Made by a program: the position numbers and the translations under genes
In this document: piece after piece, positions 3,466 through 18,622 of the stretch
Layout of the letters: each line of letters begins with the position of its first letter
How positions within the stretch are numbered: the first letter of the stretch is position 1
Notes under the pieces: model-generated
Database searches by the model: none
What the model saw: only the letters and a program-made list of their open reading frames with translations
What the model was told of the DNA's origin: nothing
DNA from: Chloroflexota bacterium
Lineage (GTDB): Bacteria; Chloroflexota; Dehalococcoidia; JACPPY01
Direction of reading: 5' to 3'
Assembly (NCBI GenBank): GCA_016190755.1
Contig: JACPPY010000001.1
Location: 1-47,136 of the forward strand
DNA: 47,136 nucleotides

Positions 3466-5646
3466 CTACTCGACTTTTTCGAGGTGGGCATAGGCCAGGA
3501 GGAGCCTTTTCATACCGACGTCCTTGAAAGCGACGGTTATCTCTTCATCTCCCCTGGCGGCGGAAAACCCGACCACTACACCCTCGCCGAACTTGGTGTG
3601 CCTGACGTGGTCTCCTGGATGCAAGTCCAGGCGTATTCGGGCCCGTTCGATAGCGTCGGTCTGAGGCACGAAGCTCTGGAGCGGAGGGCCCCAGTTGGAG
3701 ACGCTGGCGACGGGAGATGTCAGGATAGTCTTGATCATGTCTGATGGTATGTCATCAATGAAGCGGGAAGGAGGATTGGCGGTCGTAGCCCCCAGGAAAG
3801 TGCGCCTCTGGGCATGCACCAGGTAAACGAGCTTTTTGGCCCGTGTTATTCCTACGTAGCACAGCCGGCGCTCCTCCTCCATCTCTGATACATTGTCGAA
3901 AGCACGGGCATGCGGAAAGAGTTTCTCTTCCATGCCGACGATGAAGACCACGGCGAACTCGAGCCCTTTCGCCTGATGTAACGTGATCAGCGTAACGACA
4001 TTCTCTTTATCGTCGTAGGTGTCTGCCTCGGAAACGAGCGTTACCCCTTCCAGGAAGGAGGACAACCCTCCATTGGACCCCGAGCTGTTGTATTGTCTGG
4101 CCACGGTGCGTAATTCGAGTATGTTCTCCCAGCGCTCCTCCCCATCCTCGTCATCCATTATGTAGTTCTTGTAGTTGGTCTGGTCAAGCACCAGATCAAT
4201 AGTATCAGTGGCATTCAGGGTCTTGCTCTTATCGGTAAGATTCCGAACAAGTGTGTTGAATTCCGCCAGAGCATGCTGCGCCCGACCCGTGAAAGGGCTT
4301 CCGCCTGACGCATCGCCTACGAGGGCAAGCGCATCGAACACCGACATGCCGCTTCCCTTGGCCCATTGCCAGAGTGAATCGACCGTTCGCTGCCCTATGC
4401 CTCGGGCCGGAGCATTGATGACCCGCTTCAGGCTCACGTTGTCATGTGGGTTATCGATGAGCTTGAGATAGGCCAGGATATCTTTGATCTCTCGCCTCTG
4501 GTAGAAACGCGTGCCACCCACGAGCCTGTACGGGATGCCGTACCTGAGAAAGGCTTCTTCGAGTGCGCGGGACTGGGCGTTCACACGATACATTACGGCG
4601 CATTCCTTAAGTGTGGTCTTGCCTTCTTTCAGCAGACGTTCCACCTCCGCCGCCACGAATCGCGCCTCCTCCTCCTCGTCGTAGCTCTCGACCACGGATA
4701 TCGGTGAACCCTCTTCGTTCTCCGTCCAAAGCTCTTTGGGCTTGCGCTGTACGTTGACGGAGACAATGCTCTGGGCGGTGTTGAGTATCCTCTTCGTTGA
4801 CCGGTAGTTCTGTTCCAGCAGGAACACCCTGGCATCCGGAAAATCCTTCTCGAAGCTCAGTATGTTCCTTATGTCAGCCTGGCGCCAGGTGTAGATGGAC
4901 TGGTCGGGGTCTCCGACGACACATACATTGCGATATCTGCCCGCCACCTGTTTGGTGAAGGTATACTGCACTATGTTGGTGTCCTGGAACTCATCCACGA
5001 GTACATGAAGATACCTGGACTGATACCTGGACAACGTCTCGGGCGACTGGTTGAATAGTTCGACAGCCTTCACCAGCAGATCATCGAAGTCCAACGCCTT
5101 GCATATGGCGAGTGATTGCTGATAACGTTGGTAGGCCTGGTGAACGAACTTCTCGAACTGACTTTGCGCCCGCTCGCCATACTGCTGTGGAGTGATGATC
5201 TGGCTCTTGGCGGCGGACACGGCTGATAGGAAAGCCCTGGGAGAATACCTCTTAGGATCGAGCCCGCAGTCTACAATGGCCTGTTTCATCAGGTTCAACT
5301 GATCCTCGTCGTCGTAGATCACGAAGTTACGGTCGATCCCGATATCTTGACCGCGCTGGCGAAGGATACGAGCGCATATCGCATGGAATGTACCCAGAGT
5401 CAGATCTGTCACAGAAGCCCCGAGAAGGTCTTCAAGCCGCTCCTTCATCTCCCGGGCTGCTCTGTTGGTGAAGGTGACCGCAATAATGCGGTCGGGACTA
5501 ACGCCACATGTCTTAACCAGGTAGGCAATTCGATGAGTGATCACCCTCGTCTTGCCACTACCAGGCCCGGCGATGATCAGTATGGGACCTTCTGTTGTCT
5601 GCACTGCCTGCTTCTGGGCGGCGTTGAGGCCAGATAGTATGTCCAT
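3466..5646 (-). CDS. UvrD/PcrA-type ATP-dependent DNA helicase
   Basis: 'LNAAQKQAVQTTEGPILIIAGPGSGKTRV', 'LVDEFQDTN', 'VVGDPDQSIYTWRQAD', 'YRSTKRIL' SF1 helicase motifs. Confidence 0.95.
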   Translation of the reverse strand: MDILSGLNAAQKQAVQTTEGPILIIAGPGSGKTRVITHRIAYLVKTCGVSPDRIIAVTFTNRAAREMKERLEDLLGASVTDLTLGTFHAICARILRQRGQDIGIDRNFVIYDDEDQLNLMKQAIVDCGLDPKRYSPRAFLSAVSAAKSQIITPQQYGERAQSQFEKFVHQAYQRYQQSLAICKALDFDDLLVKAVELFNQSPETLSRYQSRYLHVLVDEFQDTNIVQYTFTKQVAGRYRNVCVVGDPDQSIYTWRQADIRNILSFEKDFPDARVFLLEQNYRSTKRILNTAQSIVSVNVQRKPKELWTENEEGSPISVVESYDEEEEARFVAAEVERLLKEGKTTLKECAVMYRVNAQSRALEEAFLRYGIPYRLVGGTRFYQRREIKDILAYLKLIDNPHDNVSLKRVINAPARGIGQRTVDSLWQWAKGSGMSVFDALALVGDASGGSPFTGRAQHALAEFNTLVRNLTDKSKTLNATDTIDLVLDQTNYKNYIMDDEDGEERWENILELRTVARQYNSSGSNGGLSSFLEGVTLVSEADTYDDKENVVTLITLHQAKGLEFAVVFIVGMEEKLFPHARAFDNVSEMEEERRLCYVGITRAKKLVYLVHAQRRTFLGATTANPPSRFIDDIPSDMIKTILTSPVASVSNWGPPLQSFVPQTDAIERARIRLDLHPGDHVRHTKFGEGVVVGFSAARGDEEITVAFKDVGMKRLLLAYAHLEKVE

Positions 5647-8903: not shown

Positions 8904-8978
8904 GCCAGCGTAGCTCAGCGGTAGAGCAGCTGTTTCGTAAACAGCTGGCCGTCGGTTCGATTCCGACCGCTGGCTCCA
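8904..8978 (+). tRNA. tRNA-Thr (anticodon CGT), CCA encoded
   Basis: Cloverleaf: acceptor GCCAGCG/CGCTGGC, D-arm GCTC..GAGC, anticodon stem GCTGT/ACAGC with loop TTCGTAA, T-arm GTCGG TTCGATT CCGAC, TCCA end. Confidence 0.93.
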
Positions 8979-8979
8979 G
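8934..8979 (+). repeat. attL direct repeat (46 bp) within tRNA-Thr 3' half
   Basis: ttcgtaaacagctggccgtcggttcgattccgaccgctggctccag, identical to 18577-18622. Confidence 0.95.
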
Positions 8980-9050: not shown

Positions 9051-10227
9051 CTAACCAACGGTTCTAACAACCTGTTCTGGCGCATTCGCCTGGGCCATGG
9101 CATCGTCGAAGGCTAAAGCGGCCTTTTCTGCGAGGCCTGGGAGCAGGTGAGAATAGGTGTCCAGAGTAAAGGATGTGGACGAGTGGCCCAATCTCTCGGA
9201 TATAGCCTTGATGTTGACGCCCTGCTTTAACAGGATCGAGGCGTGAGAGTGACGCAGGCAGTGTAGGTGAACATCTGAAAGGCCACATCTCCTAGCTATC
9301 TTCTTAAAAGCCGTGCTAATGCCGTCCGGGAGCATCGGCATTCCATCGGCATAAAGGAACACCAAGTCATCGTCGGTGAGCGTCTTCCCGATTTCATTCA
9401 TGGCCGCTTCTTGCTTGTCGTGGTAGGCTCTCATCGCAAGGGCCATTCTTGGCGTGAGCGCAACGGTGCGCCGGGAACGCGCCGACTTGGGTTCCGCGAA
9501 GGTGATCTTGCCACCCTTAAGGACATGCATCGAGCGACGGACTATCAAGGCACATCCGAGTAGGTCGATGTCTTTCCAAGCCAGTGCCAAGAGTTCGGAT
9601 CGCCGCAAGCCTGTGGCAGCGTCAAGTTCGAAAAGAGTTCGATACGGCGTGCCGTTGCATGCCTCCAAGAAGGTGACAAGCTCGGCCCCGTCCATGGCCC
9701 GCATTTCCTTGCGGCGAGTCTTAGGCGGGTCAATGCACGTCGCAACGTTCCTTGGGCACAAGCCCCCAGCGCATAGCATGGTTCAAGCCTTCCGATATGA
9801 GCCTGTGCGCGTGCTTCACCGTCATGGGAGACAGACCGCCCTTGCCATTTGCGCGGCCCTTTTCCAGCATTTGCCGATAAGCTGTCTGTAGATGTGCCGG
9901 CTGAAGCTGCTTGAGAGGCACATGGCCTATATATGGGTCTATGTACTGGCGTACCTTCTGGCGATAGCCTTCAAGAGTACGGGGCCTGACGTTCACGGCT
10001 GCATAGTCAGCTAACCAACGTTGGAAGAATTGGCCCACAGTCTGCTTTGTCGGCTTTACAAAAACGCCGTTGTTGTATTGGTGCACCAACTCAATGAGAC
10101 GTTCCTCGCCCCGCTTCTCATTAGGACCAACGGCAACCCACTTCGGGTGTCGCTTACCGTCCGCACCCCGGCCCATATCCAGGACTGCATAGTAATTGTT
10201 CCCTTTTTTGACTAAGCTGCCTCTCAT
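9051..10227 (-). pseudogene. Phage-type tyrosine recombinase/integrase, split by a 1-nt frameshift (ORFs 9730-10227 and 9051-9779)
   Basis: N-terminal SAM-like DNA-binding part and C-terminal catalytic part ('TGLRRSELLALAW', 'HCLRHSHASILLKQG', 'LGHSSTSFTLDTYSHLLP') in different frames; removing one A in 'gtgcccaaggaacg' (minus strand) joins GLVP-RNVATCIDPPK. Confidence 0.88.
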
Positions 10228-10229
10228 TG

Positions 10230-11276
10230 TTATTCCTCCCTGCTTTCGTTAGTTGTCTTCTCGGACGTTTCGTTCTCCGGAACTTCGTAGCCAACTGACC
10301 TCAGAAGATCGGGCGGGATACTGGCGACAGCAGTTGGCTCAAGCGCCAAATTCTCCTTCCACTTCTGTCGCCAATCTGTCTTGCTCCATTCCTTCAACTG
10401 CCGGGCGATTGTCTTCCGATCCTCAATAGGCAGGTCATTCCATTTTGGTGCCTTCCCCAGATACTGCAGGCAAATAGCGTATATCCACTCGGATTCTTCG
10501 GATAGCCCCTCTTCTTGTTGCTGTGCCTGTACCTGTTGCAGCCATGGGCCGTCTTGCCAGTCGAATGTCTGCAGCCCGACAGCCACTTCAGCCGAAAAGC
10601 TAGGCACGTTCATAAAAGTTGGCTTATCAGGTTCTTCTGCCCGACGTACCAATTCCTCTGGCGATATGTCAGATTGAGACGGAACAGCGCGTATGGATTG
10701 CGCCACTTGCCCTTGCCAAAAACCTAAGGCTTGCGCAGCATCAAGATCAGCGGTGCTCACCGGTGCCGCTGGTCCTTCTAAGATGCCTGTGATGTATTCT
10801 CGGGTCGCATACCTCCAACCCCAATACAACATGTATTGGATGCGGTTCGGACTCTTAATATGTGCGAACATTGGTCGTAACCGGGCTATCCACTGGGCCT
10901 GGCGCACTGTGAGAGGTCGACCGAGAGCCAATGAGAGTTTCCACGCAGCGAACAGGTCAGGAACGGCATCAGCGGGAATTTCCGGGTGTTGGACAAGCGA
11001 GCCAAGTTCCCACGGCTTATCCACCTCGAACCCAGCCTCGACACGAGGCCATATCTCCGCTAGCCACCCCTCAACAGTTCTTTGGGCAGGAATGAATACA
11101 GATTGGATGGGAATGCGTTTCTCCTTGACCTCTTCAGTGACCCTTTGCTTAAACATGCGATAGAACTGTGACCCAGTAGGCTTTGGCTTATGGTCTCGCC
11201 ACAGTTTTTCACATATCGTCGCGGCTGTTGTCCTCAGAGGGTTTGGCTTTCTGTCCCTCCTTGTCCTATTCCCCAC
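10230..11276 (-). CDS. Hypothetical protein, 348 aa, directly upstream of and co-oriented with the integrase
   Basis: Long ORF, 2-nt gap to the integrase; no family recognised. Confidence 0.75.
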   Translation of the reverse strand: MGNRTRRDRKPNPLRTTAATICEKLWRDHKPKPTGSQFYRMFKQRVTEEVKEKRIPIQSVFIPAQRTVEGWLAEIWPRVEAGFEVDKPWELGSLVQHPEIPADAVPDLFAAWKLSLALGRPLTVRQAQWIARLRPMFAHIKSPNRIQYMLYWGWRYATREYITGILEGPAAPVSTADLDAAQALGFWQGQVAQSIRAVPSQSDISPEELVRRAEEPDKPTFMNVPSFSAEVAVGLQTFDWQDGPWLQQVQAQQQEEGLSEESEWIYAICLQYLGKAPKWNDLPIEDRKTIARQLKEWSKTDWRQKWKENLALEPTAVASIPPDLLRSVGYEVPENETSEKTTNESREE

Positions 11277-11450
11277 TGGTGACTCCTTTCAGTTCGCTAT
11301 GGCATAAGTCGCATAGTTGCATAGCTATACATTGCGCTGCAGCACAGATTTAATTGTCTTGCGGAACACATATACGTTAACATGGGAGCCATGGTAACAC
11401 GCGGACGGCACCAAGTCAATACACAAAGGTCAAAGGGGGAATGCCACAAA
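11277..11450. promoter_or_regulatory. Divergent control region between the leftward int module and the rightward replication module
   Basis: Only divergent intergenic region in the element; contains 'gcatagttgcatagctatac' and palindromic 'gctgcagc'. Confidence 0.55.
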
Positions 11451-11699
11451 ATGGACGGAAATCGGATTCGTGAGCTCAGGACAAAGAGGGGATGGAACCA
11501 ACGGATGCTTGCCGAAAGGGCTCACACGCCGCAGGCTTGGATTTCGGCTCTCGAACTCGGAAAAGTGAAACCCTGGGGGGCAGTGGTCAAAAGGCTGTCC
11601 AAGGCGCTCAGGGTAAAGGCTGAGGAGTTGTTCCCGGATCGAATGGAGGCAATTGATGAACGAGCAGAATCCAGAACGATTGACATTGACTGTCGCTGA
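11451..11699 (+). CDS. XRE/Cro-CI family HTH regulator
   Basis: 'NRIRELRTKRGWNQRMLAERAHTPQAWISALELGKVKPWGAVVKRLSKALRVKAEELF'; start at internal ATG preceded by aaaggggga. Confidence 0.85.
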   Translation: MDGNRIRELRTKRGWNQRMLAERAHTPQAWISALELGKVKPWGAVVKRLSKALRVKAEELFPDRMEAIDERAESRTIDIDCR

Positions 11700-11859
11700 G
11701 GTCCAGAAAGCTTTGGGCCTCTCCAAAAGCACCGTCCTTAACATGATCCACGAGGGCCGAATACGGAGCGTGCGTGCGGGATCAAAGCGACTTTTGATTC
11801 CAAAGTCTGCCCTTGCTGAATTTTTGGGCGGCACAGCAAAGCCAGCGGGGGTAGCGTAA
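11653..11859 (+). CDS. Excisionase/MerR-like HTH DNA-binding protein
   Basis: 'LTVAEVQKALGLSKSTVLNMIHEGRIRSVRAGSKRLLIPKSALAEFL' excisionase-family HTH. Confidence 0.82.
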   Translation: MMNEQNPERLTLTVAEVQKALGLSKSTVLNMIHEGRIRSVRAGSKRLLIPKSALAEFLGGTAKPAGVA

Positions 11860-12507
11860 TTGGGAAACGGGACATGTGACTGCTGCGGCCAAGTACACCC
11901 CAGCGAGGAAGTTGATATCTTCTGCATGCCTTCCCTACCTACAGATATCCGGCGCACACCTGATATCGACCTCACAGGCGAGTTTGACTATCTGCTGCGA
12001 GAAATGTGCGAACTAGGGGACGCACGAATCATGGAAGATGGCGGCGTAACGCTCTGGCGGCTGGGATGCCTGAAAGACGAATACGACAGGCGTATGAGGC
12101 TCTCGAAGTCGGGTGGGCCATCGGTAAAGACGTTGAATGTCTCCGAGGTAGCCAAGGATATTAAGGCACGTATGTCCGGAGATCGATTCATAAGCCTGGT
12201 CGAAAGCGCGACAGATGCCGTAGTGCTGAAGAAGGGCACCCGATACTGGGGCACATGCCCGGCACACACAGATAAGCACCCTTCCCTATGTGTTTTTCCT
12301 GACAAATGCCGCTGTCATTGCTTTCAGTGTCATAGTCGCTGGGACGTGTTCGACATGGTTATGTGCTTCCCGCCTCATATCTCCAGCTTCACCGAAGCGG
12401 TGCAATATGTGGGCTCGTTGGCCGGCATCGATATTACCGTCCAGCGAATGCAGCTGGTACGCAGCAACCTAGAACTAGCAAAAGGGGTGACGCTTGTCAG
12501 AAGTTAA
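11860..12507 (+). CDS. CHC2-type zinc-finger DNA primase-like protein
   Basis: 'GTRYWGTCPAHTDKHPSLCVFPDKCRCHCFQCHSRWDVFDMV' zinc-ribbon of DnaG-type primases; TTG start. Confidence 0.78.
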   Translation: MGNGTCDCCGQVHPSEEVDIFCMPSLPTDIRRTPDIDLTGEFDYLLREMCELGDARIMEDGGVTLWRLGCLKDEYDRRMRLSKSGGPSVKTLNVSEVAKDIKARMSGDRFISLVESATDAVVLKKGTRYWGTCPAHTDKHPSLCVFPDKCRCHCFQCHSRWDVFDMVMCFPPHISSFTEAVQYVGSLAGIDITVQRMQLVRSNLELAKGVTLVRS

Positions 12508-13825
12508 GCTTGATCTGGAAGCACTGGAGATAGGGCCGGAAGTCACAGCGGAACAAATCAGAGCAGCACTTCAAGAGAAGTTTGCTCGCAATGGCAACCA
12601 CAATGAGCAGACATGGCCCGAACCACTACAGCCGGAAGCACTGCATGGACTCGCCGGTGATGTAGTGCGGAGCATTGATCCGCATACAGAGGCAGACAAG
12701 GCAGCTATCCTGATGACGTTCCTGGTTTACTTCGGCAATGCAGTGGGAAGAGGCCCACATGGTGTAGCAGAGCAGGACAGGCACGGCTGCAACCTCTTCG
12801 TCAATCTTGTGGGAGAGACTTCGAAGGGACGCAAGGGCTCAAGCCAAGGGCATATCCGTGAGTTGTTCGCAAGGGTTGATCCTACCTGGACGGACAATAA
12901 TGTACTCTCGGGGCTATCCAGTGGCGAGGGCTTGATTGCGGCAGTGCGGGACCGCGTGACGCGGGTGAAGGATGGCGAAGAGGAAGTAATCGACCCGGGC
13001 GTTTCAGATAAACGACTGCTCGTGGCTGAGTCCGAATTCGCCGGAGCTCTCAAGGTAATGAGCAGAGAGGGCAATACCCTTAGCGCCATCTTACGCCAAG
13101 CCTTCGACAGTGGAACGCTTCGAATCCTCACCAAGAACTCGCCAGCAAAGGCCACAGGCGCCCACATCTCGATATTGGGCCACGTGACCAAGACCGAACT
13201 GCTTCGATATCTCAATGACACAGAGTACGCGAATGGTTTTGCCAACCGCTTCCTGTGGGTGTGCGTCAAGCGAAGCAAAGTCTTACCCGAGGGCGGCGGC
13301 ATTGTGGATCACTCGAACCTGATCCCGCGTCTGAGGGAAGCATTGGAAAAGGCCCGAAGACTGGACGTTATCAGGCGTAACGAGGAAGCTAGGGAAATAT
13401 GGGCAGCGGTCTATCCTTCACTATCTGACGGTAAGCCGGGACTATTTGGAGCAGTGACAGCCAGGGCGGAAGCGCTGGTGCTGCGATTGTCTGTGCTGTA
13501 TGCCGCGCTGGACGGAAGCCCAGAGATCAAGGGCGAGCACCTGAGGGCAGCTCTGGCAGCTTGGGAATACTCCGAGCAATCAGCGGCCTATATCTTCGGC
13601 GGCACGATCGGAGACCCCATATCAGACAAGGCTCTTGCGCTATTGCGAGGCAGTGAAGGCAAGGTGGCCAAAGGCGACCTGTTCAAACTGTTCAAAGGGC
13701 ATGTGGCGGCTGAGCGATTGGACCAGGCTCTAAGGATACTCAAAGAGCGCGGTCTTGTTGACTACCAGACGGTCGATACTGGCGGACGACCGGGCGAGTA
13801 CTGGGAGGCAGTCCATGGGACTTAA
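12494..13825 (+). CDS. DUF3987-like replication protein / putative helicase
   Basis: 'NLFVNLVGETSKGRKGSSQGHIRELF' P-loop-like segment, winged-helix-like C terminus; overlaps the primase ORF. Confidence 0.7.
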   Translation: MSEVKLDLEALEIGPEVTAEQIRAALQEKFARNGNHNEQTWPEPLQPEALHGLAGDVVRSIDPHTEADKAAILMTFLVYFGNAVGRGPHGVAEQDRHGCNLFVNLVGETSKGRKGSSQGHIRELFARVDPTWTDNNVLSGLSSGEGLIAAVRDRVTRVKDGEEEVIDPGVSDKRLLVAESEFAGALKVMSREGNTLSAILRQAFDSGTLRILTKNSPAKATGAHISILGHVTKTELLRYLNDTEYANGFANRFLWVCVKRSKVLPEGGGIVDHSNLIPRLREALEKARRLDVIRRNEEAREIWAAVYPSLSDGKPGLFGAVTARAEALVLRLSVLYAALDGSPEIKGEHLRAALAAWEYSEQSAAYIFGGTIGDPISDKALALLRGSEGKVAKGDLFKLFKGHVAAERLDQALRILKERGLVDYQTVDTGGRPGEYWEAVHGT

Positions 13826-13935
13826 TTCTCTTTATTCTCTTTATTCGCATCAGGAGGAAGCATGGGCCGATATCTAGACATTGCCAACAAGGTTACCAGT
13901 GAGAATGAGAATAAAGCGAGTAAAGCGAATAAAGG
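13825..13935. repeat. 9-bp periodic inverted iteron-like repeats (CTTTATTC x2 ... GAATAAAG/GAGTAAAG x3)
   Basis: ATTCTCTTT ATTCTCTTT ATTCGC at 13825-13848; GAATAAAGC GAGTAAAGC GAATAAAGG at 13909-13935. Confidence 0.8.
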
Positions 13936-14266
13936 TCAGGCATCTCCGCCCGTTGGTCACAGACTGAGGTATCCAAATCGGCCAACGGACAATACGGAGG
14001 CCCAGGAGATTGCCCACATGGTAGCCACTCAAGGCATTGTACTCCTGTGGAGCGAGACCATGGGCGACCTCATAGCCTTCTATCGCGATGAGGACAGCCA
14101 ATGCCTGATACCTCCGGGCTTTGTCCCTTATAGCAGTGATGAACTCAGGGAACTATTTGGCGGCGACGGCAAGGAATTGTCTATTGAACACATAAGGCTG
14201 GTACATGCGGCCAAGAAAGCAGCTGGGGGTGAAGTGATAACACAGAAAGGATCGTTACATGACTAG
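13862..14266 (+). CDS. Hypothetical protein
   Basis: ORF with aggagg RBS upstream; no family recognised. Confidence 0.65.
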   Translation: MGRYLDIANKVTSENENKASKANKGQASPPVGHRLRYPNRPTDNTEAQEIAHMVATQGIVLLWSETMGDLIAFYRDEDSQCLIPPGFVPYSSDELRELFGGDGKELSIEHIRLVHAAKKAAGGEVITQKGSLHD

Positions 14267-14552
14267 CTCATCGTTGACTTTCGAGCAGCTTTGCCAACTG
14301 GAACCCGGCCTTAAGACACTGTACGACGAAGTTAAGGCAATATCCCGCAAGGGCAATCCGAAGTTCTGCCCAAACTCGGTTTGGTATGGCTACGGCAATT
14401 GCGAGGCTGGGTTCAAATACCGCATGAGTCGCCTAGTTGGGCTTCACAGAAAGCCAGCGGATCCCGTCTTGAGTTCGAGCCGGGCATATGACGTCTGCTA
14501 TGCGGTGCTCTATGGCGCTTTGAAAGGTAACAGCCATGGTAACCACCAGTAA
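14259..14552 (+). CDS. Hypothetical protein
   Basis: ORF overlapping the preceding stop by 8 nt. Confidence 0.6.
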   Translation: MTSSSLTFEQLCQLEPGLKTLYDEVKAISRKGNPKFCPNSVWYGYGNCEAGFKYRMSRLVGLHRKPADPVLSSSRAYDVCYAVLYGALKGNSHGNHQ

Positions 14553-14755: not shown

Positions 14756-15067
14756 ATGGCGCACACTCAAGAAACAATCGTTAGCTTCATTGACGGTGAG
14801 GATTCAGCCAACATCTTCACGTGCTCCCGCCGCTGGCAGAGGCACTTGGCCAAGCTCGGGATTAACCCGAACCAGGGCAAGGGCGGGCACGACTACGTCG
14901 TGCCCAAGAGTTGGATAAAACTTCCGGGCCCACCGGCGAGACGATCCCAGACCCAGCGCGACGCCGCCCGGCGGAACGCTCAGGCGTTGCACAAAACAGG
15001 CCATCTTGCCGTATTGAACATGGCAGCCACTCAGGGTTCAGGGACGGAGATTCCTGCCGATGCCTAA
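14756..15067 (+). CDS. Hypothetical small protein upstream of the terS-like ORF
   Basis: ORF overlapping the next start by 8 nt. Confidence 0.55.
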   Translation: MAHTQETIVSFIDGEDSANIFTCSRRWQRHLAKLGINPNQGKGGHDYVVPKSWIKLPGPPARRSQTQRDAARRNAQALHKTGHLAVLNMAATQGSGTEIPADA

Positions 15068-15440
15068 TCCTTCACGCCGAAGAGGCAACCCCCGCTGGAA
15101 CAATGGCTTGTCTCCGAACCCCAATGGCAGACCACGTGGTCAGACCACCTTTGAAGCCTTTTGCCAAAACCCTCAACGCTTTGTGCTTCGCCATCCCGGC
15201 CTCAGATGGGCGCGCTTCGCTCTTGGACTTTTGGAGCCACCTTATACCGGGGCAGCGGCGGCCAGGCGCGCAGGGTATAGTCCGAAGTCGGCCAGGTTCA
15301 TCGCTTCTCGATTACGGAGAAGGCCGATTGTCAGGGCTATGATTAGGGAGTTCAGGGAGATTACCAGCTCACGGATAGCATACGAGGAGTACAAAGCTTT
15401 TGGCTTTTTCAGGGGCAGACCGCCCAGCCAATGGCCATAG
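15060..15440 (+). CDS. Terminase small subunit-like protein
   Basis: 'NPNGRPRGQTTFEAF' plus 'GAAAARRAGYSPKSARFIASRLRRRPIVRAMIREF', resembling the terminase_2/TerS helix-turn-helix. Confidence 0.62.
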   Translation: MPNPSRRRGNPRWNNGLSPNPNGRPRGQTTFEAFCQNPQRFVLRHPGLRWARFALGLLEPPYTGAAAARRAGYSPKSARFIASRLRRRPIVRAMIREFREITSSRIAYEEYKAFGFFRGRPPSQWP

Positions 15441-15455
15441 AAGATATTAGATAAA

Positions 15456-15592
15456 AGTCAACGTTCCTGCTTGACTGGTAGTGTATGAGTTTGAACAGAA
15501 TGCTGAAAATCACTTCCGTAAGTAAAAGTCTCAGAATTATGTCCACTGCCCCTTGACGTCATATGCCGCAGGCCAATAAAGTCAACTTGACT
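15456..15592. promoter_or_regulatory. Two AGTCAA...TTGACT inverted repeats upstream of the Panacea pair
   Basis: AGTCAA-N9-TTGACT at 15456-15476; AGTCAA-C-TTGACT at 15580-15592. Confidence 0.55.
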
Positions 15593-15657
15593 GGTGCGAA
15601 CGCGGTGTGTGGTGATGTAGTGATTCAGGTGGATAGTTAGTAGTTTTAGAGGGTCAT

Positions 15658-16086
15658 ATGTTAACTGCGAGTGATGTTGCCCGCTATTTTCTTGCAAGCC
15701 AAGATGATGATTGTGGCGAACTGATCACTAATCTTAAGCTACAGAAGCTTTGCTACTATGCTCAGGGATTCAGTTTGGCTATTCGCAACGAGCCGCTGTT
15801 TGCCGACAGGATAGAGGCATGGAAGCATGGTCCTGTTATTCCTTCGTTGTGGCAGGAATATCGGGATTACGAATATAGACCTATAGATGTTCCGGAGGAT
15901 GTCGACTTCGACTTATACAACCAAGACACGAAAGACCTTTTGGATGAAGTCTATAACGTGTACGGTCAGTTCTCCGCCTGGAAGCTTCGCGATATGAGCC
16001 ACGAGGAACCGCCTTGGCGAGAAGCCAACGGTGGGGAGATTTCTATCGAGTCTATGAAGAAGTACTTCAAGACTCTCTTGAACTAG
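15658..16086 (+). CDS. Panacea/DUF4065 domain protein (putative antitoxin)
   Basis: 'ITNLKLQKLCYYAQGFSLAIRNEPLFADRIEAWKHGPVIPSLWQEYRDY', 'SAWKLRDMSHEEPPW'. Confidence 0.9.
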   Translation: MLTASDVARYFLASQDDDCGELITNLKLQKLCYYAQGFSLAIRNEPLFADRIEAWKHGPVIPSLWQEYRDYEYRPIDVPEDVDFDLYNQDTKDLLDEVYNVYGQFSAWKLRDMSHEEPPWREANGGEISIESMKKYFKTLLN

Positions 16087-16092
16087 CTAGCC

Positions 16093-16506
16093 GTGTCTCA
16101 TAACCGACTAAGACGACCTGAGCCTAACAAATCAACCAGACTCAGTACTCCACCAACAACACCGGACTTTGATCAGATGCCACCCTATTTCTCCCTACAT
16201 CATATGGTAGATGGTTTTTGCGTTAACGATTGTGAGCCTGATGATCAAGCTGCTTTTGCTCGATCTCTACGCAAAAGAAGCCAGATGACATGGCAACAGA
16301 TCAGGCAAGACAAACGCCATGGATTAGGTACCGAGAAGATTGCCCGGTCCTCTATGAAAGTACCTATCCCATCCGACATTACTGACGACGTTCAACTCTT
16401 GGCCATGAGATTCAATGGTGCTAAGGCAATGGTTGGATACCGCGAGGACAACATCTCCCACATAATCATATTAGACCCGAAGTTCAGAGCTTACGACCAC
16501 GACTAG
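16093..16506 (+). CDS. Putative toxin partner of the Panacea protein
   Basis: 6-nt gap to the DUF4065 gene; 'YFSLHHMVDGFCVNDCEPDDQAAFARSLRKRSQMTWQQIRQDKRHGLGTEKI...ILDPKFRAYDHD' matches a remembered family that neighbours DUF4065 genes. Confidence 0.65.
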   Translation: MSHNRLRRPEPNKSTRLSTPPTTPDFDQMPPYFSLHHMVDGFCVNDCEPDDQAAFARSLRKRSQMTWQQIRQDKRHGLGTEKIARSSMKVPIPSDITDDVQLLAMRFNGAKAMVGYREDNISHIIILDPKFRAYDHD

Positions 16507-16928: not shown

Positions 16929-18242
16929 ATGACTCTGCAAGAACAGAAGCACCTCAAGCACATTAGGAACATCTGTTATTGGATCTATATCGTCATGTTT
17001 GTGGCAGGACGAACGGCCATGATGCAACAGGATCGTGCCTTGGTAGCATGGGAGTGGTCTGTTGTTATCGGACTTACCGCGGTACAGGTTGCCATAGGGC
17101 TATATGGCAGCTATAACTGGATGAGGGCCAAGAGCCGCAATACTTGGCTCACATCCATCGGAATACTCGGCCCTATTGGTTGGCTTATCCTCATATTCTT
17201 CAAGGAAAAAACGGTGATCGTTGAAGTGCCTGACAAGAGTGGCCCCGCAATGCAGGTGCAGATGCGCAAGGCTACTCTTGTCTTCATGAGTCTCGCTCTG
17301 GGAGCAACCGTCTTTTACGGTGTTGCTATCACCGTGAATGCCTCGAATACAGCACAAACTCTTGCCGTGGCACAATCGGAATTGTCCGCCGCAAAGACAG
17401 AACTGAAATCTGTTCAAGGTGCTCATGCCTCTATGCAGGACGCCCTTTCTTCGGCTGAGCGGACACTTGCCTCAACACGGTCAGACTTTACGTCCGCGAG
17501 CCAAAGACTGTCGTCTACTCAGAATGAGTTGTTGGCTACCAAAAACAAATTGAATGACATGGACGCTAAACTCAAGCTCTACGAGGACACTATGGGTATT
17601 AGGATTTTTTCTGGCGTACAGCCTAGGGCTAGGGGTGCCGGACCAATTGAGCTCGTCAACAATCCCGTTGCCGTTGACCCGACTTGGCAGCAACTAGTTG
17701 CATTCCTGCGGGCGGACACTACAAACGCTAGAACATGGACGGAAGGCGTCTTCGTTTCAGGAGACTTTGCTGAGATGCTTCACAATAATGCCGAGGCGGC
17801 TGGAATCAGGGCCGCTCTAGCTGGTGTATATTTTGAGGGCAAGGTCATCGGCCACGGGTTCAACGCTTTCAAGACAGCGGACAGGGGATTGGTGTACGTA
17901 GAGCCGCAGTCGGACGCGATAGCATATGTGACTAAGGGGAAAGAGTATGGCACCGTGGGTTTGAGTCACGATCTCCGCTTTGATTACGGCTACTACGAAA
18001 GGGTGAAAGCTGACTGGAACTCTTATATCCAGCAATTGGAAGCATTCAACAGGGATGTTCAAGCATTCAACAGGGAAATCTCCGGGAAGGTCTACTACAT
18101 AGGGACTAGGGAGTGGTTCCGAGTCAAGGAGTGGAAGAGTGACCTGGCAGCAAAAGAAAAGGCGCTCGTTGACCTACGAGCACAACTCGAACAAGTCCGC
18201 GAACCGATGGGCATCGTCAAGACAATCGAGATATACTGGTGA
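16929..18242 (+). CDS. Membrane-anchored coiled-coil protein with C-terminal transglutaminase-like domain (Cys to Ser)
   Basis: Several N-terminal TM segments, long Ala/Ser/Leu coiled coil, then 'GVFVSGDFAEMLHNNAEAAGIRAALAGVYFEGKVIGHGFNAFKTADRGLVYVEP'. Confidence 0.65.
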   Translation: MTLQEQKHLKHIRNICYWIYIVMFVAGRTAMMQQDRALVAWEWSVVIGLTAVQVAIGLYGSYNWMRAKSRNTWLTSIGILGPIGWLILIFFKEKTVIVEVPDKSGPAMQVQMRKATLVFMSLALGATVFYGVAITVNASNTAQTLAVAQSELSAAKTELKSVQGAHASMQDALSSAERTLASTRSDFTSASQRLSSTQNELLATKNKLNDMDAKLKLYEDTMGIRIFSGVQPRARGAGPIELVNNPVAVDPTWQQLVAFLRADTTNARTWTEGVFVSGDFAEMLHNNAEAAGIRAALAGVYFEGKVIGHGFNAFKTADRGLVYVEPQSDAIAYVTKGKEYGTVGLSHDLRFDYGYYERVKADWNSYIQQLEAFNRDVQAFNREISGKVYYIGTREWFRVKEWKSDLAAKEKALVDLRAQLEQVREPMGIVKTIEIYW

Positions 18243-18576: not shown

Positions 18577-18622
18577 TTCGTAAACAGCTGGCCGTCGGTT
18601 CGATTCCGACCGCTGGCTCCAG
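18577..18622 (+). repeat. attR direct repeat (46 bp)
   Basis: Identical to 8934-8979. Confidence 0.95.

Follow-up and report, generated by a model that had tools for sequence, protein, structure and literature searches.

An att-bounded island of 9,643 bp (att start to att start) in a Chloroflexota genome is probably a PICI-like phage satellite. It lies at a tRNA gene within the window, the whole stretch of 47,136 nt that was analysed, and encodes a small terminase subunit (TerS) without a large one (TerL). A first-pass annotation had proposed a satellite from the lone TerS-like gene. That reading is supported by confirmation of the TerS call and by the absence of TerL, screened with four families, from both the island and its genome. 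It is strengthened by the att repeats and by five parallel TerS islands without TerL in the same class. The features of the island, from the integration site to the second repeat, are the following.

8904..8978, plus strand: tRNA-Thr (CGT), the integration site, whose 3′ part is attL (ARAGORN, Rfam RF00005)
8934..8979, plus strand: attL, a 46-nt direct repeat corresponding to the tRNA 3′ end (100% identical copy at 18577)
9051..9779, minus strand: tyrosine integrase, catalytic half, in the other frame (PF00589, 9e-28)
9730..10227, minus strand: tyrosine integrase, N-terminal half (aligns to residues 7–166 of the 393-aa L034 integrase)
10230..11276, minus strand: 348-aa protein directly upstream of int (no family match)
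11382..11699, plus strand: XRE/HTH_3 repressor-like regulator (PF01381, 2.6e-10)
11653..11859, plus strand: AlpA/excisionase-like HTH_17 protein (PF12728, 6e-13)
11860..12507, plus strand: CHC2 zinc-finger primase-like protein (PF01807, 2.2e-13; phrog_6444 DNA primase, 6.4e-14)
12494..13825, plus strand: primase/helicase-type replication protein (phrog_10514, 4.5e-10; phrog_5311, 1e-7)
13862..14266, plus strand: small protein with an N-terminal MGRYLDIA motif, adjoining the helicase (no Pfam or PHROGs family)
14259..14552, plus strand: 97-aa protein (no family match in Pfam or PHROGs)
14756..15067, plus strand: 103-aa protein whose ORF, with its stop at 15067, overlaps the start of terS by 8 nt (relative at L032 7953–8255, 37% over 81 aa)
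15060..15440, plus strand: TerS-like gene, 126 aa, ATG start (Pfam, PHROGs, predicted structure)
15658..16086, plus strand: Panacea/SocA-domain protein, antitoxin-like (PF13274, 3.6e-23; phrog_1281, 4e-50)
16093..16506, plus strand: probable toxin partner, MAG6450-like (phrog_8366, 5e-42; NF046006, 3e-5, below cut-off; weak PADLOC NsnC)
16929..18242, plus strand: membrane/coiled-coil protein, cargo (coiled-coil matches only, below cut-off)
18577..18622, plus strand: attR, the second 46-nt copy (repeat search)

Between the repeats, the replication and cargo ORFs are uninterrupted and closely spaced. The island ORFs scanned include no gene for TerL, portal, capsid, tail or lysis, in agreement with the earlier statement that terL, portal and capsid genes are missing. 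A frameshifted terL downstream of the TerS gene, which had been named as evidence that would count against a satellite, is missing from all three frames of 15301–15720 and from the list of ORFs. The Panacea/SocA gene and the MAG6450/phrog_8366 gene (15658–16506) form a probable toxin–antitoxin pair carried as cargo, to judge from their family matches. This cargo, the size of the island and its tRNA target would also fit an integrative mobilisable element transferred by conjugation. However, a TerS gene is unexpected in such an element, and no relaxase or conjugation family was found among the island ORFs scanned (the scan covered protein families, with oriT outside it); this reading is very improbable.

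Both integrase halves align to one 393-aa integrase, which indicates that the window gene is frameshifted or misassembled. The integrase of L035 (12169–13346) is split as well, at a different point from that of the window (9051–10227). The position of the 348-aa protein beside int is held by ORFs of 223–335 aa in L032, L034, L035 and L036, among which only the L035 ORF has a short tblastn match to it.

The TerS-like protein matches small-terminase helix-turn-helix (HTH) families over residues 52–107. Pfam Terminase_2 (PF03592) aligns to residues 65–107 through profile positions 19–61 (26.7 bits, E 1e-5), just over its cut-off of 26.1 bits. PHROG matches were obtained to phrog_51 (9.7e-8), phrog_641 (1.3e-5) and, more weakly, phrog_2606 and phrog_5334, and none of ten control searches, nine with shuffled versions and one with the sequence reversed, produced a PHROG match at E ≤ 1. 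In an AlphaFold2 model made with 16 relatives as input, residues ~50–107 reach pLDDT 80–95. The best PDB matches to the modelled domain are the DNA-binding domains of phage SF6 TerS, 2cmp and 4zc3 (TM 0.81 by target, rmsd 1.4–1.9, probability 1.00), at an E of ~0.6 that is due to the small size of the domain. The peptide originally picked out as a TerS-type DNA-binding HTH, 'GAAAARRAGYSPKSARFIASRLRRRPIVRAMI', occupies residues 64–95, and both the profile searches and the fold of the model bear out that assignment. The 'NGRP' segment reported ahead of it is likewise present, in 'NPNGRPRG' at residues ~20–27. The DUF5681 Pfam match over this segment is weak, at 18.4 bits under a cut-off of 27.5. 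In L080 a DUF5681 protein is encoded immediately 5′ of TerL, and this arrangement supports a role in packaging for this type of N terminus.

Several searches gave less. The protein has no match in NCBIfam, and phmmer against the PDB returned the SF6 domain at a nonsignificant 0.49. A single-protein tblastn against phage GenBank records found no match because the query is too diverged and short. Most matches to it within the class (L004–L008 and L010–L012) look like chance and fall in unrelated ORFs.

An HTH of this kind could instead belong to a DNA-binding regulator, or to a replication or excision factor, in an ordinary integrative element with another mode of transfer; that the HTH half alone is kept would suit such a protein. 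Against this, every matching PHROG with a named function is a terminase small subunit (the other matching families are without function), the best structural matches are to SF6 TerS, and the DUF5681 protein of L080 directly precedes TerL. A role as regulator or accessory factor is therefore improbable.

The protein was previously described as merely short, and the missing part can now be specified as the TerS C-terminal domain. Positions ~62–141 of the Terminase_2 profile, the C-terminal oligomerisation/TerL-contact domain, have no match in it beyond position 61. The TerS relatives found with an alignment query are full-length, at 155–235 aa, and keep a C-terminal block, 'K..AL..L..HLGL', that is absent from the 126-aa protein; every aligned phage relative has the C-terminal domain that it is without. 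On these alignments, the protein is the DNA-binding half of a TerS with a DUF5681-like N terminus, lacking the usual C-terminal oligomerisation/TerL-contact region. At the viral loci examined, TerS is followed by a long ORF that is TerL-like by sequence in 12 of 13 cases, with L141 as the exception.

A TerS without its C-terminal region suggests either nonstandard work with a helper TerS or TerL or a copy that is partly decayed, and the absent domain together with the frameshifted integrase indicates that this island copy may be decayed or specialised. In its full form the decay explanation holds that a prophage or satellite lost terL and its structural genes, leaving the TerS stub and the integrase as functionless relics. 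The missing domain, the frameshift and the loss of structural genes all favour it. Against it, the remaining replication and cargo genes keep open, closely packed frames, and the att repeats remain identical over 46 nt. Part of the evidence also runs against a random truncation. A relative in the class, L161 (genome G261), is 55% identical over window TerS residues 61–126 and so reaches the last residue (tblastn 3e-18), which raises the possibility that the shortening is not random. The short form may thus be conserved, a suggestion resting on two sequences. The earlier idea of a truncated relic may hold, given the lost C-terminal half and the frameshifted integrase, although the shared short tail speaks against a random truncation.

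The L161 match (4033–4446, minus strand) covers 66 window residues, and its own frame continues further. It sits on a contig of 4.7 kb on which no island genes are recognisable, a setting that favours the regulator reading.

Five other att-bounded islands with TerS and without TerL were found in the same class. They span 8–10 kb and carry an integrase and replication genes.

L029: 7,953 bp, tRNA-Gln, Terminase_4
L181: 8,225 bp, tRNA-Leu, Terminase_4
L159: 9,518 bp, tRNA-Lys, Terminase_2, TerS of 164 aa
L162: 8,186 bp, tRNA-Arg, Terminase_2
L184: 8,912 bp, tRNA-Arg, Terminase_4, TerS of 160 aa

The host genomes of L159 and L184, each a single contig and ~99% complete, yield no TerL with the four families, and the full-length TerS proteins of these two elements argue that the short protein in the same kind of element is not simply a regulator. 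That the layout recurs with two unrelated TerS families and at different tRNA genes makes independent decay unlikely as its source. Partial decay is a serious alternative for the window copy and less so for the islands as a group; as an account of the island as a whole, decay into functionless relics is unlikely. In the 8.2-kb att-bounded element L162 (4982–13205), TerS is accompanied by a packaging-related gene, that of an HK97 major capsid protein (PF05065, 2.4e-45), and by a Panacea-like gene, with TerL absent. For seven other elements (L047, L049, L053, L092, L093, L114 and L115), no direct repeats of ≥26 nt were found, and their ends are therefore not fixed.

The replication module is far more widely distributed than these islands. 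Relatives of the window helicase (44–59% identity) come from many phyla and occupy at least 253 stretches in the GTDB genome collection, 80 of which were examined together with 16 viral contigs. The closest named relative, at 59%, is from a Dehalococcoidia MAG, in keeping with a class that is apparently Dehalococcoidia. The helicase found no viral relative as a single-protein query, whereas an alignment query did. A 'DUF3987' label once attached to it was dropped for want of Pfam support. A small gene whose product starts M(G/S/N/D)-x-YL lies immediately downstream of the helicase in 29 of 100 loci, across many phyla, and is apparently a conserved partner.

Local HMM searches place different packaging genes near this helicase: TerS in a few loci (L029, L115, L117 and L126), TerL in others (L051, L061, L071, L073, L079, L080 and L098), and HK97 capsid and portal genes in the IMG/VR viral contigs L118–L120 and L122. 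Several further HTH proteins resemble TerS PHROGs. Many loci have neither TerS, TerL nor capsid by these searches, whose profiles will miss diverged TerS. The many same-helicase elements found without TerS, such as L092 and L100, are what would be expected if the HTH protein were a regulator. The variety of packaging genes suggests that the core is common to elements with different packaging solutions. Because the family occurs both in elements without TerS and on contigs with capsid, portal or TerL genes, the module alone implies no packaging parasitism. In L118, L119, L120 and L122 the helicase family lies directly upstream of the HK97 capsid/portal genes, a cfPICI-like arrangement.

A life cycle for the preferred satellite reading can be proposed. 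Upon infection by a helper phage, or its induction, the island would be cut out by its integrase with the AlpA-like factor and then amplified by the replication module. The HTH of TerS would next recognise a site in the island and direct the TerL and procapsids of the helper to it, so that helper particles would carry the island; the Panacea pair might meanwhile affect other phages. Excision, replication, recognition of the packaging site by the TerS HTH and the use of helper TerL and capsids are inferred steps, as is a defensive function of the Panacea pair. A broader and more tentative proposal, which we regard as possible but doubtful, is that there is a satellite lineage in the Chloroflexota, apparently in the Dehalococcoidia. 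In it, TerS genes from unrelated families would be exchangeable modules placed behind different primase/helicase cores, and the shortened TerS of the window would mark DNA for the helper motor without an oligomerisation domain of its own.

PICIs are recognised by an integrase, a replication module, a regulator and att sites, without structural or lytic genes, at ~12–15 kb, and some direct helper packaging through a TerS of their own (PMC6092414). The window island resembles PICIs, including SaPIs, in being att-bounded with an integrase, a replication module and a master regulator and in having no structural or lytic genes; at its 9,643 bp it falls below their size range. It differs in its Chloroflexota host, in replication proteins not matched to those of PICIs, in having no known capsid-redirecting gene and in a TerS reduced to the HTH with a DUF5681-like N terminus. 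Because the gene content is that of a PICI and the size is not, and because helper and interference are putative, the island is called PICI-like and is not filed as a PICI.

The PICMIs of the Vibrionaceae are small islands with an integrase, AlpA/HTH_17, a primase and a gene beside int; they insert at fis, are without terS and have a model that uses DUF3987/DUF5906 primases (PMC10803314). The window island shares the integrase/AlpA/primase plan and the gene next to int. In contrast, it uses a tRNA-Thr site, has terS and shows no DUF3987/DUF5906 Pfam match in its helicase. Likeness to cfPICIs appears in the helicase family beside HK97 capsid/portal genes and in the TerS and capsid gene of L162, whereas capsid and portal genes are absent from the window island. 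VEIMEs and tycheposons, marine virion-encapsidated islands known from environmental virions, are like the window island in being small and integrative. Both are named in PMC10803314. Satellite families are mainly known from Proteobacteria and Firmicutes, with Cyanobacteria and Actinobacteria as recent additions (2024 review, PMC11389934). A literature search that covered few subscription papers found no paper on satellites in Chloroflexota.

The genome that holds the window is a MAG of 98 contigs, 81% complete, in which the four TerL families (phrog_2, PF03354, PF03237 and PF04466) found nothing; no cognate TerL adjoins the TerS-like gene in the island or elsewhere in the genome. Given the 81% completeness, a prophage with TerL could sit in the missing part. 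A second TerS in this genome (Terminase_4, 3e-30; L180:10185–10679, contig C69) lies beside ParB/methylase and primase genes, near the contig end and without TerL.

Across the class, 17 of the 30 genomes with a TerS match lack TerL according to the four families; most of the TerS matches, not all, are over the family cut-off, and weak phrog_2 matches (E 1e-6 to 1e-3, over 60–130 positions in long frames the size of a helicase) were excluded from the TerL count. These figures suggest common packaging parasitism in this Chloroflexota class, which is ecologically important and mostly uncultured. An att repeat with an integrase and TerS but no TerL provides a genomic signature for finding satellites, and a TerS cut to its DNA-binding half would directly test which TerS parts a satellite needs. 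One class genome, G206, has four TerS loci (L029, L181, L182 and L183) close to tRNA genes; the four families detect no TerL in it, and it probably holds several satellites in one lineage.
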